64,000 nt of DNA from Terriglobales bacterium (GTDB taxonomy: Bacteria > Acidobacteriota > Terriglobia > Terriglobales > Acidobacteriaceae). Shown one piece after another: positions 2-63,869 of the stretch. Below the pieces are notes generated by a model. It was not told the origin of the DNA, ran no database searches, and was given only the letters and a program-made list of their open reading frames with translations. The stretch lies in the NCBI GenBank assembly GCA_035651995.1, contig DASRER010000028.1, forward strand, positions 1-64,000, read 5' to 3'. The stretch's first letter is position 1. Each line of letters opens with the position of its first letter. The position numbers were made by a program, and so were the translations under genes.

Positions 2-856
2 AAAGGGCCCAGGGCCAGCGAGGGCTACATCCTCGACTTTGAGAAGATCTACGAGAAGATTGCCGAAACCCTGGAGATGGGCGGCACTGGCGTGCTCATG
101 CAGGGCGGCATCCACCCCGACTTGAAAATCGATTGGTTCGAGAGCCTCTTCACCGGCATTAAGCAGCGCTTCCCGCAGATCTGGCTGCACTGCCTGTCGG
201 CGTCTGAGGTCCTGGCCATCGCCGAGTACTCCGAGCTCGATCTGCGCACCACCATCGCCCGTCTCCGCGACGCCGGCCTCGACTCCATCCCCGGCGGCGG
301 CGCCGAGATCCTCGACGACGAAGTCCGCTACAAGATCGCGCGCCTCAAGTGCCTCACTCAGGATTGGGTCAACGTGCACCGCACCGCCCACCAGCTCGGC
401 ATGCGCACCACGGCGACCATGATGTTTGGCGTGGGCGAAAAGCTGGAGCACCGCGTCAACCACTTCAAGGTCGTGTACGACCTCCAGGAAGAGACCGGCG
501 GCTTCACCGCCTTCATCCCCTGGACGTTCCAGCCGCACAATACCGCGCTCGGCGGCCGCCACTGGGACGAAGCCACCAGCGTCGAATATCTCAAGACGCT
601 CGCCATCTCGCGCCTGTTCCTCTCCAACATCGAGAACATTCAGTCGAGCTGGGTCACGCAGGGTCTGAAGGTCTGCCAGCTCGGACTGCGTTTCGGCGGC
701 AACGACGTGGGCTCGGTGATGCTGGAAGAGAACGTCGTCAAGGCGGCAGGCACCTCGAACTGCACTACCGAAGAGGAACTGCGCCGAATCATCCGGGGCG
801 CGGGCTTCCGACCAGCCCAGCGGGATACGCTGTACCGGACGATGTTCCTGAATTGA
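2..856 (+). CDS. mqnC: Cyclic dehypoxanthinyl futalosine synthase MqnC, 3' part (5' end outside window)
   Basis: The frame is open from base 2 to a TGA at 854-856, so the N-terminus with the radical-SAM CxxxCxxC cluster lies upstream of the window. The visible part has MQGGIHPDL, IPGGGAEIL, TMMFGVGE and the C-terminal RDTLYRTMFLN, all typical of MqnC. MqnC is a cytosolic radical-SAM enzyme that cyclises dehypoxanthine futalosine in the futalosine route to menaquinone. mqnD lies 7 kb downstream on the same strand. A diverged copy of the last 17 codons reappears at 2369-2419. Identity is firm; only the 5' end is missing. Confidence 0.96.
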   Translation, partial: KGPRASEGYILDFEKIYEKIAETLEMGGTGVLMQGGIHPDLKIDWFESLFTGIKQRFPQIWLHCLSASEVLAIAEYSELDLRTTIARLRDAGLDSIPGGGAEILDDEVRYKIARLKCLTQDWVNVHRTAHQLGMRTTATMMFGVGEKLEHRVNHFKVVYDLQEETGGFTAFIPWTFQPHNTALGGRHWDEATSVEYLKTLAISRLFLSNIENIQSSWVTQGLKVCQLGLRFGGNDVGSVMLEENVVKAAGTSNCTTEEELRRIIRGAGFRPAQRDTLYRTMFLN

Positions 857-867
857 GAATCGGGCAG

Positions 868-1809
868 CTAGCGAAGAGCAGCCGTCACCAGCTTTACCCT
901 TCCTTTTTGCACCTTGAAAAACGTGAGGCCGTCCTTCGAAAGGCAGATGGCGTTGTTGCCCGTTTCGTCGGTGGGTTGAAATACTGCGGTCAATTGACCG
1001 GTCACCCGGTCAAATACTGAATACCTGTACATTAGCATGTTCTTTGAATCTGGCTTGGAGAAGAAGACGACAACCTTACCTTCCACCGCCGCGACATCGG
1101 AAGCGTGAAATCCAGGTTCCGGAGCCGCGAACAGAATCCGGCGCGGTGCACCTCCTGGTGGAAAAACGAGCACGTGGTCGGACTGCAACATGTAGATCGC
1201 TCCGTCTTCGCCTTCCGCGGCGGCGGCCTCGGGCGAGCGGCTCTCAATGTCGCGGAGTGCATCTTCCGCAATCTGCTCCAATGAGTTGCGTACGACGTTT
1301 CCGGCGGGGCCGAACTCCACCAAATCAGTCTTTCCTCGCATTTGTTCCGCTGCCCGATCGTCAAAGTATCCATGCACAAGGATGTGTTCGTTTCCCAAGG
1401 CTACAAAGTTCCGAGCCCGAAAGCCCGTGGCGGTATTCAGATGCAATCGCGACGGAGTACTGGAGCCCTTGCCGTAGGTGTAAACGTCGTAGCCACCACG
1501 GCGGAGTGCAACCATAAGTCTGAGGCTTCCATCTCGACTCACCCGAAATGCCGTGAACTCGCGGTCGTCGTTTTCCTCCGCCGGCTCGTAAAAACTGAAC
1601 ACGCCGTTGGGTTCGAGCTTGAGAATTACGGCAGCCCTCGGACGGCCAGTATGAAAGAAAAGGTTGCCGTCAGCATCACACTGCGCGTTGTCGGTAAATC
1701 CGAAGGCAGGGATGCCTATGTCACGCGTGGTCGACGCACGTAACGGTATCGGGTCTTGTCCGAGGGCGACTGTAGTGCACACCAGGAGCAACGTCAAAAT
1801 GCGCGCCAT
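868..1809 (-). CDS. Secreted protein of unknown function, cassette copy 1 (beta-propeller-like)
   Basis: 313 residues from the ATG at 1809, chosen because it opens a Sec signal peptide (MARILTLLLVCTTVALGQ); the frame stays open further upstream but without a signal. The mature part is rich in short beta-strand-like segments (DADGNLFF, DGAIYMLQ, PEPGFHASDV, DETGNNAICLS), suggesting a propeller or sheet-rich fold. It is paralogous to the product at 2444-3427 along its length, sharing PEPGF, YRYS, ETGNNA and FxKVQ. It converges on mqnC with an 11-nt gap. A six-cysteine gene lies 251 nt upstream on the same strand; that spacer (1810-2060) holds no gene I can support. Function unknown. Confidence 0.75.
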   Translation of the reverse strand: MARILTLLLVCTTVALGQDPIPLRASTTRDIGIPAFGFTDNAQCDADGNLFFHTGRPRAAVILKLEPNGVFSFYEPAEENDDREFTAFRVSRDGSLRLMVALRRGGYDVYTYGKGSSTPSRLHLNTATGFRARNFVALGNEHILVHGYFDDRAAEQMRGKTDLVEFGPAGNVVRNSLEQIAEDALRDIESRSPEAAAAEGEDGAIYMLQSDHVLVFPPGGAPRRILFAAPEPGFHASDVAAVEGKVVVFFSKPDSKNMLMYRYSVFDRVTGQLTAVFQPTDETGNNAICLSKDGLTFFKVQKGRVKLVTAALR

Positions 1810-2060: not shown

Positions 2061-2249
2061 CTAGCACTGGGTACCGGGAAACAAATCCCTGCATTGTCCC
2101 GAGAATCCCGAGCACGCGAGCGTGTTCCATCGCGTTTGATCACAAGTGCACGTGGTCTGTCTCGAAACGACTTGTCCTGATGAACACACCGCAGCTGCTG
2201 ATGTGGCGGCGAACACAGCAAATATCAGCGCGAACGCCCCTTTTGGCAT
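2061..2249 (-). CDS. Small secreted six-cysteine protein, cassette copy 1
   Basis: 62 residues. The ATG at 2249 has a strong Shine-Dalgarno (AGGAGG on the minus strand) at good spacing. Residues 1-20 form a signal peptide (MPKGAFALIFAVFAATSAAA). The mature peptide has six cysteines with spacing C-x11-C-x-C-x9-C-x6-C-x8-C and ends in FPGTQC. The paralogue at 3427-3783 has the same pattern with a first gap of 10 and FPGTYC, so this is a real small family. Oxidised export as a disulphide-rich peptide is likely. Function unknown; partnership with the downstream secreted protein is inferred from the duplicated arrangement. Confidence 0.7.
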   Translation of the reverse strand: MPKGAFALIFAVFAATSAAAVCSSGQVVSRQTTCTCDQTRWNTLACSGFSGQCRDLFPGTQC

Positions 2250-2365: not shown

Positions 2366-2422
2366 GACGGCTTCCGCCCCGCCCAGCGCGACACCCTGTA
2401 CCGGACAATGTTCCTGAATCGA
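2366..2422 (+). pseudogene. Relic of a second mqnC 3' end
   Basis: In frame this segment reads D-GFRPAQRDTLYRTMFLN-R, the same 17 residues that end MqnC at 803-853. The two DNA copies differ at six positions, all third-codon and synonymous (cga/cgc, cca/ccc, cgg/cgc, gat/gac, acg/acc, acg/aca). The position of the mqnC TGA stop reads CGA here. Upstream similarity fades within about 20 bases and stops appear in frame. It sits directly 3' of cassette copy 2, just as the real mqnC end sits 3' of copy 1. Confidence 0.85.
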
Positions 2423-2443: not shown

Positions 2444-3427
2444 CTACTTCAGCGAAGCCGTCATGATCTGGAGAGTTCCGTGCTGCACCTTCAAGAACTC
2501 TAGCCCATCGTTTGAAAAGCAAACGGCATTGTTGCCGGTTTCAACACTTGGCTGGTAAGTGCGGAGCACCGCCCCGCTCAGGGCGTCGAGCAGCGAATAA
2601 CGGTACTGAATCAAACCACGATCGGGAGACCTGGAAAAAGACACCAGCAATTGCCCGCCGTTCACCGCGATGTTGGAGGCGCGAAACCCCGGCTCCGGCG
2701 CCTTCACCTGGATTCGACGGATGACCCGTCCCGTCTGCGAGACCACCGTTACCTGGGTATCTTGCAACAGGTAAATATCCCCCACCTCGCTCTCGGCCGC
2801 AGCAGCATCGGGTGATCGTCCAAGGACCTCCTTCAGTGCGCTTACTGGGCCTTGGTCCAACGATCGCCGGAGAAGCTGCCCGGAAGCGTCGAACTCGAAC
2901 AACCCACTTTTTCCTGCTTCAACCGCACTCGGCGCCTCGCGAAAATAACCTTGCAGCAGGACGTGGCCATTTTGGAGCATTGCAAAATTTCTGGCTTCCA
3001 GCCCCTGCGGGACATCCAGGCGGATCCTTGTTGGCATGCTCGCGTCGCTGCCGAACTCAAACAGGAGCGGTTTACCCTCATGCGCGTTCACCAGCAACCA
3101 CAACTTTCCTCGCCTGCTTACCCGGAATGCTACAAACCATGCACTGGCCTCCTGTTGGGGCAGCGAGTAGACGCTTGTGCCGCCCTTTCGATTCAGCCGA
3201 AGAATAAGAGGATCGTTGTAAACACGGGTAGCGTGGAAATAAAGATTTCCGGCCTCATCGCATTGAGCATTTCCGAAGCCTCCGAACCCCGGAACCCCTG
3301 CATTACGCACGTCCGTAATTGCTAGTGTTATAGGGGGCGGCGCTGATGGTTCTTGCGCAGCCCCCGCCGTGGCAATCGCCGCGGCAAGTACAGCGTAACC
3401 AATGCGAGGAAAACTGTTGGTTCGCAT
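2444..3427 (-). CDS. Secreted protein of unknown function, cassette copy 2 (beta-propeller-like)
   Basis: 327 residues with a signal peptide (MRTNSFPRIGYAVLAAAIA, cleavage near GAAQ). Paralogue of the 868-1809 product: both carry GxGNAQCDxxGNLYFH-like, FVAFRVSR, LEARNFA, PEPGF, YRYS and ETGNNA. Its start codon overlaps the stop of the upstream six-cysteine gene by one base (TAATG), so the two are translationally coupled here, unlike copy 1 where 251 nt intervene. Beta-strand-rich and probably periplasmic or extracellular. I do not recognise a catalytic motif. Confidence 0.75.
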   Translation of the reverse strand: MRTNSFPRIGYAVLAAAIATAGAAQEPSAPPPITLAITDVRNAGVPGFGGFGNAQCDEAGNLYFHATRVYNDPLILRLNRKGGTSVYSLPQQEASAWFVAFRVSRRGKLWLLVNAHEGKPLLFEFGSDASMPTRIRLDVPQGLEARNFAMLQNGHVLLQGYFREAPSAVEAGKSGLFEFDASGQLLRRSLDQGPVSALKEVLGRSPDAAAAESEVGDIYLLQDTQVTVVSQTGRVIRRIQVKAPEPGFRASNIAVNGGQLLVSFSRSPDRGLIQYRYSLLDALSGAVLRTYQPSVETGNNAVCFSNDGLEFLKVQHGTLQIMTASLK

Positions 3428-3783
3428 TACTGTAGGCTGACTCCCGCTTTGTCTTGAGGAATTCCGTCGGTCGATCCGCAGCTTGCCCAGGCGATTCTGT
3501 CGTCATAATCTGGTCGAAACGAAGCATTCTCGATACGCCGTTCCTTCTCAATTCGACGACCCTGCGGTAGGCAACGGTCGGCAGCCATCGAAACGTAACA
3601 CGACAAGGGAGGGTCGCTGCCGCAATATGTGCCGGGAAAGTCGTAGTCGCAATTTCCAATTTCACCCTCACAGGCAGTCGCCGAGACCATCTGCCCTGTG
3701 CAGGAGCAAAGAGTTTGCGTGGTGACCCTGCGACCGCCACATGGAAAAGCAAAGGTTCCAACCAGCAGCAATCCCAGAAGCAC
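3427..3783 (-). CDS. Small secreted cysteine-rich protein, cassette copy 2 (extended)
   Basis: 118 residues from a GTG at 3783 preceded by GGAAGG. The hydrophobic start (MLLGLLLVGTFAFP) is a short signal or lipoprotein-like segment. The same six-cysteine pattern as the 62-residue paralogue covers the first half. It then continues for about 70 residues with three more cysteines, whereas copy 1 stops right after the sixth cysteine. Either copy 1 was truncated or copy 2 gained a tail. Coupled to the downstream secreted protein by TAATG. Confidence 0.6.
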   Translation of the reverse strand: MLLGLLLVGTFAFPCGGRRVTTQTLCSCTGQMVSATACEGEIGNCDYDFPGTYCGSDPPLSCYVSMAADRCLPQGRRIEKERRIENASFRPDYDDRIAWASCGSTDGIPQDKAGVSLQ

Positions 3784-3953: not shown

Positions 3954-4008
3954 CATTTTTTCTGACTCCGCCGCCGCCGGCGGCAATAGAGAGAGCTTGT
4001 CGTTGAAC

Positions 4009-5640
4009 ATGATGACGGTGATCCCAGCCATGGCCCTGATGGCGGCGGGCTCTCCGCGCGGCGTGGGCCATTACTTCCGCACGCACTTCCTCGACACGAC
4101 CTTCAAGGGCCTCTACCAGCCAAATGGCTTCGACCTGGCGCTGCTGGTTCCCTACTTCGTCGTCCTCATCATTCTGGCGTTCTACGGGCTGCACCGCTAC
4201 GTCCTCGTCTATCAGTACTACAAGTATCGGCGCAATCGCTCGCCGCAGCCGCTCGGGCAATTCGCTGACCTGCCGCGGATCACGGTGCAGCTGCCCGTTT
4301 TCAATGAGCAGTTCGTGGTTGACCGGCTCATCGAGTCGGTGTGCCGGCTGAATTATCCCCGCGAAAAGCTCGACATCCAGGTGCTCGACGACTCCACCGA
4401 CGAGACCGTCACCGTCGCCCGCGGCGCCGTGGAGCGCTGGGCGGCGCTTGGCTTTGACATCAGCTACCACCACCGCGACAATCGCGGCGGCTTCAAGGCG
4501 GGCGCGCTCCAGGAAGGCATGCAGTCGGCCAAGGGCGGGCTGATCGCCATCTTCGACGCCGACTTCACGCCTCCGGAAGACTTCCTGCTGCGCACCGTGC
4601 ACTACTTCACCGACCCAACGGTCGGCATGGTGCAAACCCGCTGGACGCACATCAATCGCCACTACTCGTTCCTGACGGAAGTCGAGTCCATCCTGCTCGA
4701 CGGCCACTTCGTCCTCGAGCACGGAGCGCGCTCGCGCCGCGGCGTCTTTTTCAACTTCAACGGCACGGCCGGCATCTGGCGCCGCGCCGCCATCGAAGAC
4801 GCCGGCGGCTGGCAGCACGACACGCTCACCGAAGACACCGACCTCTCCTACCGTGCGCAGCTTCGCGGCTGGCGCTTCCGCTACCTGCAGGACGTGGAGT
4901 GCCCGGCCGAGGTTCCGGTCGAGATGACTGCCTTCAAGACGCAGCAGGCGCGCTGGGCCAAGGGCCTGATCCAGACGTCGCTGAAGATTCTGCCGTCGGT
5001 CCTGCGCAGCAACGTGCCGCGCAAGGTGAAGGTCGAAGCCTGGTACCACCTCACGGCCAACATCAGCTATCCGCTCATGATCGCGCTGAGCGTGCTGCTG
5101 TTGCCCGCCATGATCATTCGCTTTTACCAGGGCTGGTTCCAGATGCTCTACATCGATCTGCCCCTGTTCCTGGCCTCGACCTGCTCGATTTCCAGCTTCT
5201 ATCTGGTCTCACAGAAAGAGCTCTACCCGAAGACGTGGAAGCGCACGTTCCTCTACCTGCCGTTCCTGATGGCGCTCGGCATCGGGCTCACCATCACGAA
5301 TTCGAAGGCGGTGATCGAGGCGCTGCTCGGCATCCGCTCGCCGTTCGCGCGCACGCCCAAGTATCGCGTCGAGTCGCGCAAGGACAGCGCCGCCCGCGCC
5401 CGCAAGTACCGCCGCCGCCTCGGCTGGGTTCCCTGGATCGAGATCGCCATCGGCGCCTACTTCGCCACGACCGTCTACTACGCAGTGGTCAACGAGAACT
5501 ACTTCACCGTGCCCTTCCTCGGACTGTTCGTGCTGGGCTACTGGTACACCGGCCTGATGTCGCTGCTCCAGGGCCGCTTCGAGCGCCTCTCGCTCACCGC
5601 CACCGAGCCGCACAGCAAACCCTACGCCGTCGGGGTCTAA
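4009..5640 (+). CDS. Membrane-bound processive family 2 glycosyltransferase (cellulose-synthase-like)
   Basis: 543 residues from the ATG at 4009; upstream codons lack GT sequence and cross the candidate promoter. A TM helix (about residues 42-60) precedes a cytosolic GT-A domain with DDS at 127-129, DAD at 183-185, TED at 274-276 and QQARW at 312-316, the D,D,D,QxxRW signature of processive beta-glycosyltransferases. Further TM segments follow residue 345, with a C-terminal TM pair. It probably polymerises or transfers an NDP-sugar at the inner membrane; the product (cellulose-like glycan or glycolipid) cannot be told. No BcsB or PilZ fusion is visible. Confidence 0.88.
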
Positions 5641-61922: not shown

Positions 61923-62831
61923 TCACTTCGCCTTGGGATGCGTCCGGTCGTACACCTCCAGCACGTGCTTCACCGAGAGCTGCGTGTAACGCTGCGTCGT
62001 CGAAAGGCGCTCGTGCCCGAGCATTTCCTGGATGGCGCGCAGGTCGGCGCCCTCTTCCAGCATGTGCGTGCCAAAGGCGTGCCGCAGAGTGTGCGGATGC
62101 ACGTCGGGCGACAGCCCGCGCCGCACCGCGATGTGCTTCACGATGCGGCCCACACTGCGCGTGGTCAGGCGCTCGCCGCGCAGATTGATGAGCAGCGCCG
62201 GCGTCTGCTTTTTCTTTTCGCCGAGCACGCGCTGCCTGTGCGGCAAGTACGTCTCCACCGCATCACGCGCCGCGCCGGCGAACGGAACATAGCGCTCCTT
62301 CTTGCCCTTGCCCCGGACGAGGATCGCGTCGTTCGACCACGACACATCGTCCAGGTTGATCCCCACCAGCTCCGAATTGCGGATTCCGCACCCGTAGAGC
62401 AACTCCAGGATCACCCGATCGCGCTCGGCAAACGCGGCGCTCTCCGGCAACGCGCCGTCCAGCATCGTCGCCATCTCTTCGATCGTCGGGACGCGCGGCA
62501 GCTGCTTCGGCAGGCGCGGCGTGGCCACCAGCGCCGCCGGGTTCTGCTCCACCTCACCCTCGCGCGCCAGCCACCGATACAGCGAGCGCACCGCCGCCAG
62601 CGCCCGGGCCACGCTGGTCTTGCTCAGCCCGCGCTGATACAGCTCGCCCAGCCACCCGCGGATGCGCACATGATCAATCGCGCGCACGTCCGCATCGCCA
62701 ACGAATGCCGCAAACTGCGCCAGGTCTTTCCCGTACGCCAGGATCGTGTTCGGCGAAGCGTTCCGCTCCCGCAGCGCGCTCAGGAAGCGCGCGACGTGCC
62801 GCTCGGTTGATGTTTGCTTCTTCGCTGGCAT
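61923..62831 (-). CDS. xerC: Tyrosine recombinase XerC
   Basis: 302 residues from ATG 62831. Catalytic residues R (GIRNSEL), K (GKGKKER), H-x-x-R (HTLRH), H (LGHERLST) and Y (RYTQL) are in order, and the end [10 protein letters not shown] is XerC-like. An N-terminal SAM-like core-binding domain (about 10-95) is present. It resolves chromosome dimers at dif with XerD, whose gene is next upstream. Confidence 0.92.
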
Positions 62832-62840
62832 TGACAACTG

Positions 62841-62922
62841 CGCTGCTGGTTACTGGCTGCCAGCTGCTGGCCAATGCGGTCCTTGCCTTTGCCAGCAGCC
62901 CGTAGCGAACAGCCAGCGGCGC
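62841..62922 (+). repeat. GCTGCTGG/GCCAGCAGC-word palindrome between xerD and xerC
   Basis: GCTGCTGGTTACTGGCTGCC and AGCTGCTGGCC face GCCAGCAGCCCG and ACAGCCAGCGGCGC. Confidence 0.65.
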
Positions 62923-62924
62923 AT

Positions 62925-63869
62925 TCAGCCCTTTCTCGCCCTCGGATGATGCGCCGCGAACACGCTCTTCAGCCGGTCCAGCGCCACGTGGGTGTAAACC
63001 TGCGTGGTCGAAATGTCGGCATGCCCCAGGATCGTCTGCACCGTGCGCAAATCGGCGCCGCGCTCCACCATGTGTGTGGCCGCCGAGTGCCGCAGCATGT
63101 GCGGGCTCGCGCCGCGTCCCGAGCCCGCTCCCGCGCGCCGCACCAGTTGCCACACGCGCTGCCGCGTCAGCTTGCGCGCTCCACGCGCGATAAACAGCCA
63201 CGGCGCCGTCTTCGCGCCCGCGAGCTTCGGCCGTGCCTCGGCCACATAGTCGCGCAGCGCCGCAATCGCCGACGCCCCCAGCGGCACGATCCGCTCCTTG
63301 TCGCCCTTGCCGCGGACGAGCAGATAGCCGAGATCGAGCTTCAGGTCCTCCATCCGCGCCGAGGTGAGCTCCGAAACTCGCAGCGCGCCCGCGTACAACA
63401 CCTCGAGCATCGTGCGATCGCGCAGCGCGAGCGCGGCGGGCAGCGGACCGCCGTTGGTCCGCGCCGGCGCCAGCATCTTCTCCACTTCCGCGAGCGCCAG
63501 CGACTTGGGCAGGACCTTCCACTGCCGCGGCGTCTCGATATTGAGCGTGGGATCGTGCTTCACGTGCCTATCCAGCAGCAGGTACTTGTAGAAGTGCCGC
63601 AGCGCCGAGAGCTTTCGCGCCACCGACCGCCCGTCGAGCTGATGGGAAAAAAGCTGGTCCAGGAAGGCGCGCACATCCTCGCGCCGCGCAGTCGCCAGCG
63701 TCCGCCGCTTCTTCGCGGCGAACTCGGCGAATTGCTCCAGGTCGCGCTCGTAGGCGCCCAGCGTCAGCCGCGCCAGCCCCTTTTCCACCTGCAGATAATT
63801 AAGGAATGCCGCGGCCAACTGCTTGTCCTCGCTGCGCAACGCGGGCCGCGTCTGGACAAACTTCCGCAT
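62925..63869 (-). CDS. xerD: Tyrosine recombinase XerD
   Basis: 314 residues from ATG 63869. R (GALRVSEL), K (GKGDKER), HMLRH, LGHADISTT and Y in VYTHVALDRL form the R-K-H-R-H-Y set; ISTTQVYTH and HHPRA are XerD-like. N-terminal core-binding domain with FLNYLQVEKGLARLTLGAYE. Partner of XerC, 93 nt downstream on the same strand. Confidence 0.92.
   Translation of the reverse strand: MRKFVQTRPALRSEDKQLAAAFLNYLQVEKGLARLTLGAYERDLEQFAEFAAKKRRTLATARREDVRAFLDQLFSHQLDGRSVARKLSALRHFYKYLLLDRHVKHDPTLNIETPRQWKVLPKSLALAEVEKMLAPARTNGGPLPAALALRDRTMLEVLYAGALRVSELTSARMEDLKLDLGYLLVRGKGDKERIVPLGASAIAALRDYVAEARPKLAGAKTAPWLFIARGARKLTRQRVWQLVRRAGAGSGRGASPHMLRHSAATHMVERGADLRTVQTILGHADISTTQVYTHVALDRLKSVFAAHHPRARKG

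Follow-up and report, generated by a model that had tools for sequence, protein, structure and literature searches.

The window, a stretch of 64,000 nucleotides of DNA from a member of the Acidobacteriaceae, begins at base 1 of contig C28 of a 3.66 Mb genome and opens within mqnC (2..856, plus strand), a gene of vitamin K2 (menaquinone) synthesis whose 5' part is lost to the contig start. Its product is a radical SAM protein with a CofH/MqnC C-terminal region (Pfam PF19288, 6e-35; PF04055, 9.3e-11). Downstream of mqnC, on the minus strand, lie sec1, a gene for a secreted protein (868..1809, the start being set at a signal-peptide-like Met, while the longest open reading frame begins at 2016), and cys1, a gene for a small Cys-rich secreted protein (2061..2249). 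A short second copy of the mqnC 3' end, which we call the relic, follows on the plus strand (2369..2419). Beyond it are a second secreted-protein gene, sec2 (2444..3427), and a second gene for a Cys-rich secreted protein, cys2 (3427..3783), both on the minus strand. The right flank of the insertion is a glycosyltransferase gene (4006..5640, plus strand), which was named by inspection and comes after mqnC in many relatives.

None of the products of sec1, cys1, sec2 and cys2 has a Pfam match at E ≤ 0.1. The two secreted proteins are 43% identical (296 residues) and the two Cys-rich proteins 42% identical (38 residues). Since a Cys-rich open reading frame also precedes the sec gene at 5 of 12 other sec loci, sec and cys are a real two-gene unit. 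Matches to sec1 at E ≤ 1e-15 occur in 13 of the 398 family genomes searched, the window's own included; in all 12 others, mqnC is absent within the 1.5 kb flanks of the secreted-protein gene, and a sec/cys pair adjoining mqnC was seen only in the window.

A second mqnC 3' end in the window

The first-pass annotation of this DNA had reported that 17 codons at the end of mqnC (803..853, plus strand) recur at 2369..2419 with six differences, every one of them synonymous, and the alignment of the two segments gives exactly this (45 of 51 positions identical). The relic lies ~1.5 kb downstream of the working gene. The two copies part at the 18th codon, which is TGA in mqnC and CGA, not a stop, in the relic (2420-2422). 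At the left edge of the relic the homology ends abruptly; beyond its right edge, blastn aligns the copies weakly (70.7% over 174 columns) into the 3' ends of both secreted-protein genes. The longest perfect stretch shared by the relic and the mqnC end is at most 12 bases. Because the two cassettes have the same make-up, an mqnC end with a secreted-protein gene and a Cys-rich gene, the relic is the left edge of the second cassette.

The match is not a chance one. When an HMM of mqnC ends was run over both strands of 115 distinct mqnC loci, the relic was recovered at E = 1.4e-8, whereas the best score otherwise obtained, with four clear second ends set aside, was 0.56, for a second piece in genome G026. 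When the first 10.85 kb of the window were scanned base by base, the relic scored 45/51 and the runner-up, on the opposite strand, 26/51. Counted by identical positions, the relic agrees best with the mqnC end of G032 (47/51), compared with 45/51 for the mqnC of its own genome.

Second mqnC ends in related genomes

Second mqnC ends were sought by a search for mqnC in 61 genomes, by scanning the loci with their own mqnC ends, by the HMM scan and by comparing a 45-residue mqnC end with 398 family genomes. In the last search, up to 18 candidates were scored per genome and the 42 genomes with at least three matches were looked at more closely, G000 and G026 having been identified before, so that the genome count is a lower bound. 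At least ten second ends were found in at least 8 of the 398 genomes, the window included, and all ten lie downstream of mqnC, on the same strand and at a distance of 0.3-3.9 kb. Their left boundaries, counted in codons before the stop, are at 17 in the window, 13 in G396, 20 in G382 (stop included, 64 nt at 97%), 21 in G100 (decayed), 27 in G350 (locus L102) and 35 in G415 (locus L103). G071 has two relics, with boundaries at 24 and 61, and G026 has one at 25 together with a 43-nt piece (93%) that starts 23 codons before the stop. All ten boundaries fall in the last 61 of ~350 codons.

In G382 both of the two differences are synonymous, as are those in the window, but the relics of L103, L102, G026, G071 and G100 carry many amino acid changes; the relics thus appear to differ in age. 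The first-pass annotation had held that many relatives with both copies, and with the relic drifting at all codon positions, would speak against its reading. Such second ends do occur; however, their cargo and boundaries differ from those of the window, and they are therefore taken to be separate events.

Several candidates were left aside. A possible second end in G030 (33/51) was dropped as unconvincing. Pieces of mqnC ends at contig edges in G264, G430, G168, G260 and G285 (the last weak), which could stem from relics, from truncated genes or from mixed strains, were not counted, nor were other pieces from the 42 genomes, which were whole-length relatives of the protein or weak matches. As separate observations, a tRNA-Asp gene sits between the two relics of G071, and the sequences behind these relics (L173 2195-2321 and 2725-2857), which are alike, have a terminator-like start.

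Cargo between the two ends

The cargo enclosed by the two ends mostly differs among the relic genomes. It consists of the secreted and Cys-rich genes in the window, a HigB/HigA-type pair in L102 (a Gp49-like toxin that barely reaches the Pfam cut-off, with an addiction-module antidote) and a 199-residue protein without a Pfam match in L103. By inspection, G026 has a secreted protein and a TPR-type regulator, G071 an antitoxin-like gene and G382 a lipoprotein-like gene. The 0.3 kb that separates the mqnC end from the relic in G100 and G396 holds no clear gene, and no gain of cargo is visible there. The relic starts no more than ~7 nt from the last cargo stop codon in L102 and G026 and no more than ~20 nt from it in L103; the distance from the cargo reading frame to the relic is ~300 nt in G382 and ~120 nt in the window.

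The 3' end of mqnC had been proposed as the junction at which the cassette was inserted, and the relatives bear this out. Of the 24 loci at which the glycosyltransferase was matched, 23 were measured (G017, whose mqnC is divergent, was omitted, and the start was extrapolated). In these, mqnC and the glycosyltransferase gene are 19 to 7036 nt apart; the gap is 3150 nt in the window and below 300 nt in 10 of the 23, where the glycosyltransferase gene directly follows mqnC. Insertions are concentrated in the mqnC 3' flank, a hot spot where toxin-antitoxin pairs of the HigB/HigA type are frequent. At 17 of a set of 120 loci, a HigA gene of the L102 type is found on the mqnC strand, at most 4 kb downstream. 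Of 80 genomes in the genus of G382, 23 match HigA at E ≤ 1e-30; the match is on the mqnC contig in 19, on the same strand and 101-2609 nt downstream, and on another contig in four. G441 represents the empty site for L103, since the two genes beyond the L103 insert start ~140 nt after the mqnC of G441. Sequence further downstream is common to G441, G304, G336 and G382, and the content in between differs. In a literature search, mostly of sources other than subscription journals, no paper linked mqnC with toxin-antitoxin genes, and no title among those listed described this locus.

Displaced ends of other genes

Gene ends in general were scanned over 864 kb of the window's genome (689 open reading frames). 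There were 31 partial matches, of which one, that of the window, was judged clean; the remainder were, by eye, low-complexity sequence, very short matches or distant paralogues. Over the 115 mqnC loci (1292 open reading frames), 12 partial 3'-end matches were obtained, five of them judged clean, three for mqnC and two for other genes. The clean cases of both scans were chosen by eye, and the 115-locus scan missed L102. A 5'-end scan of the same loci returned 49 partial matches, all judged to be repeats or low complexity. Displaced 3' ends thus occur for 3 of 115 mqnC genes versus 2 of ~1177 other reading frames (P 0.006; 0.041 without the window): mqnC is enriched for displaced 3' ends, but is not unique.

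Both of the other clean cases lie in the mqnC neighbourhood, beside toxin-antitoxin-like pairs. At L117:10534-12190, the gene for a large protein that neighbours the mqnC-side toxin-antitoxin locus in convergent orientation has its displaced 3' end beside a HigB-like remnant; here the right flank may gain genes in the same way as the mqnC side. At L153:2948-4754, a galE-like gene has its displaced 3' end ~690 nt downstream, with a BrnT/BrnA-like pair in between.

Divergence of the two copies

It had been suggested that selection for the MqnC protein acted while the two mqnC ends diverged, and the pattern of differences supports this. Under unconstrained drift, the probability that six of six differences are synonymous is 3.2e-4 to 8.4e-4, depending on the weighting of transitions. 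Counted per 100 alignment columns, the first block of the repeated unit, which holds the relic, is 79% identical and the later blocks 53-73%, and the relic itself reaches 88%. As the remainder of the repeated unit is less well conserved, the relic appears to have been part of a functional gene until recently; as the surrounding cassettes are far more diverged, it does not behave as an old local duplicate in decay, and that explanation is disfavoured. The best reading remains the one first proposed, namely a displaced end in whose origin recombination with a relative was involved. A target duplication of the transposon type was rejected, because the lengths vary and the copies differ.

The repeat could nevertheless have arisen by a local tandem duplication of the mqnC end together with the secreted-protein and Cys genes, followed by divergence. 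Such a duplication would explain why both units of the window have the same order and orientation, and in G071 the stretches that follow the two relics do resemble each other (71% over 134 columns). However, it predicts that the unconstrained relic should be the least conserved part of the repeat, whereas it is the most conserved part and all six of its differences are synonymous; moreover, self-comparison of G382, L102, L103 and G026 revealed no direct repeat beyond the mqnC end. We therefore regard a tandem duplication as highly improbable and retain the displaced end.

Mosaic mqnC and probable direction of transfer

Compared with its 15 nearest relatives, the mqnC of the window agrees with them in the first half and lags over much of the last 140 codons. 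In a 5'/3' mosaic statistic it ranks first of 117 (maximum z 3.3), holding the first rank at six of seven cuts and the third at the seventh. The other seven relic genomes have ranks of 17 to 106 of 117 and give no such signal. The approximate imported-looking 3' tract, in which identity to the relatives falls, is at 373..856 (plus strand); its left limit is uncertain and lies 80-160 codons from the stop.

With the 15 nearest relatives chosen by the mqnC body, the relic of the window is the closer of the two ends in ten and the present end in two; for G382, the corresponding numbers are five and one. For L103, L102, G026 and G071, it is the present end that is closer to the relatives, a pattern that fits old, decayed relics and gives the direction of transfer no support. 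The mosaic of the window and the closeness of its relic to the relatives suggest that the present end was imported with sec1/cys1 and that the relic is native, together with sec2/cys2. This is the reverse of what the first-pass annotation had expected, that is, a relic clustering with another lineage: the relic looks native and the present end does not. No donor genome was found.

tRNA genes, integrases and competence genes

Integrative elements of the kind that restores a target gene end, for example at tRNA genes, do so with the incoming end and require an integrase and a fixed core site. They have in common with the mqnC locus that the target is restored and the old end displaced; they differ in the integrase and the fixed core, neither of which was found at mqnC. 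The first-pass annotation had supposed that the gene end is restored as integrating elements do at tRNA genes, and this part of its reading is not sustained. The left boundaries lie anywhere from 13 to 61 codons short of the stop, a spread of up to 48 codons, which argues against a single fixed attachment site, and no tyrosine integrase lies near mqnC. In seven of the eight relic genomes the mqnC contig, which in some is short (6.6 kb in G382), is free of matches to the Phage_integrase family (PF00589), and in the window the two matches are 61 kb from mqnC. The latter are two adjacent tyrosine recombinase genes at 61968-63500, probably a xerC/xerD pair; similar pairs are present in others of the genomes searched.

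tRNA genes, on the other hand, are enriched at the relic loci. They lie within 4 kb downstream of mqnC at three of the eight (G071, G100 and G396) against 3 of 112 others (P 0.0036), and in these three, as in two of the three others, they run opposite to mqnC, with their 3' ends towards it. Owing to this arrangement, a tRNA-anchored element could act at G071, G100 and G396. For the window, a tRNA island was rejected since there is no tRNA gene in it, and G026, G382, L102 and L103 have none in the 4 kb after mqnC.

Site-specific integration, either by an element at the mqnC 3' end or by a tRNA-anchored island downstream that disturbs this end, would thus explain the tRNA genes and their orientation, and also why the end is restored and the old one displaced, always at the same gene and in the same orientation. 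The varying left boundaries, the lack of Phage_integrase matches on the seven contigs and within 61 kb in the window, the five loci without a tRNA gene and the fact that the duplicated sequence is that of mqnC rather than of a tRNA gene all stand against it, and we hold it to be very unlikely.

Genes for DNA uptake are frequent: ComEC was found in seven and DprA in seven of the eight relic genomes. ComEC is also present in 10 of 14 controls; judged from this gene content, which is only permissive, DNA uptake is possible in the relic genomes. The dprA gene is close upstream of the main mqnC in G026, G071, G100 and G396. G000 (L090) has a second complete mqnC, 72% identical, at C33:48703-49554, with dprA at C33:44718-45332, ~3 kb before it.

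A proposed mechanism of gene gain at mqnC

The two ends of the window differ at synonymous sites only, its mqnC is a mosaic and similar scars occur in seven more genomes. With the relic 1.5 kb past the gene and such scars in relatives, new genes probably reach this locus of soil acidobacteria through recombination in which the end of mqnC is replaced and the old end displaced. As to how this proceeds, the sequences lead us to favour, with somewhat better than even confidence, an additive recombination in which a donor mqnC end and its cargo were added and the native end was shifted downstream. A donor fragment from a related species would have brought the 3' portion of its mqnC and, behind it, a secreted-protein/Cys-rich cassette. 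The left joint would have been a homologous crossover some 80-160 codons ahead of the mqnC stop, and the right joint, formed without extended homology, would lie 17 codons before the native stop. The donor end would then have restored mqnC, while the native end, the older cassette (sec2/cys2) and the glycosyltransferase gene moved to the right, leaving the native end 1.5 kb downstream as the relic. In this scheme, we infer the direction of transfer, the illegitimate nature of the right joint, uptake by natural transformation and the action of one mechanism in all scars.

Several points count against additive recombination, among them G100 and G396, where no cargo is visible, and the absence of a donor genome. 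A further one is the enrichment of tRNA genes at relic loci, which it does not predict; this count lowered our confidence in it and raised that in site-specific integration. Another is that the mosaic is present in the window alone of the eight relic genomes. In addition, random joining by itself, under a uniform model, leaves the clustering of the boundaries near the gene end unexplained; to invoke the loss of longer direct repeats would be ad hoc.

In a rival scheme, the incoming DNA was an integrase-free circle that carried a short mqnC 3' end and cargo. A single homologous crossover would leave the whole gene on the left and the truncated end on the right, and recombination between the two ends would free the circle again. 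Relics of variable length are then expected, as is a relic that starts close to the last cargo stop codon, as at the circle junction, and this is what is seen in L102, G026 and L103. Docking of a circle by an mqnC end would apply above all to G382, whose 64-nt ends at 97% are enough for RecA (a threshold of ~30 bp, as given in the available part of PMC2884548). In the window, however, the perfect stretches are now too short for a RecA crossover and the mosaic extends far upstream of the 17 codons, which a circle with a short end does not predict; the distance from cargo to relic is also long in both the window and G382. A circle is accordingly an unlikely explanation. Distinctly unlikely too, as a general statement, is that the conserved mqnC 3' end is a reusable, integrase-free docking site at which small cassettes of toxin-antitoxin pairs or secreted proteins, each carrying a copy of the mqnC end, would enter by ordinary recombination, restore the gene and leave scars. 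If this were true, a docking locus would grow like an integron without an integrase, each previous end being a countable scar.

Relation to known systems

Homology-facilitated illegitimate recombination needs RecA and incoming linear DNA. It appears to be the closest known process to additive recombination at mqnC, by analogy: one side is homologous and the other is joined without homology. The non-homologous joint is found at varying positions (boundaries at 13, 17, 20, 21, 23, 24, 25, 27, 35 and 61 codons), whereas a joint in extended homology may be seen in the mosaic mqnC of the window (rank 1 of 117), a signal that the other seven relic genomes lack. The process is described in three competent species (PMC2884548), and transformation itself can generate tandem duplications (PMC3784515), as far as the excerpts of these papers go.

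The minimal mobile elements of Neisseria, according to the definition quoted from PMC3082526, are different whole-gene cassettes exchanged between the same conserved genes by homologous recombination. Displaced ends of flanking genes, however, lie outside this quoted definition. Differing whole-gene cassettes are indeed found between mqnC and the glycosyltransferase gene, as the range of gaps and the cargo clusters indicate. As for exchange of the flanks, a left mosaic is found in the window only, and there is one possible displaced end on the right flank, in L117.

Orphan ends of Rhs genes are also displaced 3' regions behind an intact gene, and in this they resemble the relic; the difference is that they are toxin modules and not the end of a housekeeping gene. 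Such orphan 3' ends of Rhs toxin genes are mentioned in the accessible text of PMC5361080, which concerns the sequential displacement of T6SS effectors in V. cholerae, proposed to occur via homology-facilitated illegitimate recombination. As far as that text goes, the V. cholerae case is similar to that of mqnC in its homology anchor on one side, in a resident 3' end that is shifted and can be kept, in the absence of an integrase and in the stacking of additions. It differs in that there a toxin gene is displaced and the immunity genes are kept, whereas here a conserved menaquinone gene remains intact and has no relation to the cargo.

Implications

When genes are gained next to core genes without mobile-element machinery, a legible record is rarely left. 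At this locus, the end of a conserved gene can occur twice without an integrating element in sight, and the displaced end of a menaquinone synthesis gene probably marks recombination. Each addition may leave a scar of this kind, whose state, with synonymous changes only or decayed, tells its age. The order and the donors of successive additions at one locus could thus be read across hundreds of Acidobacteriaceae genomes.
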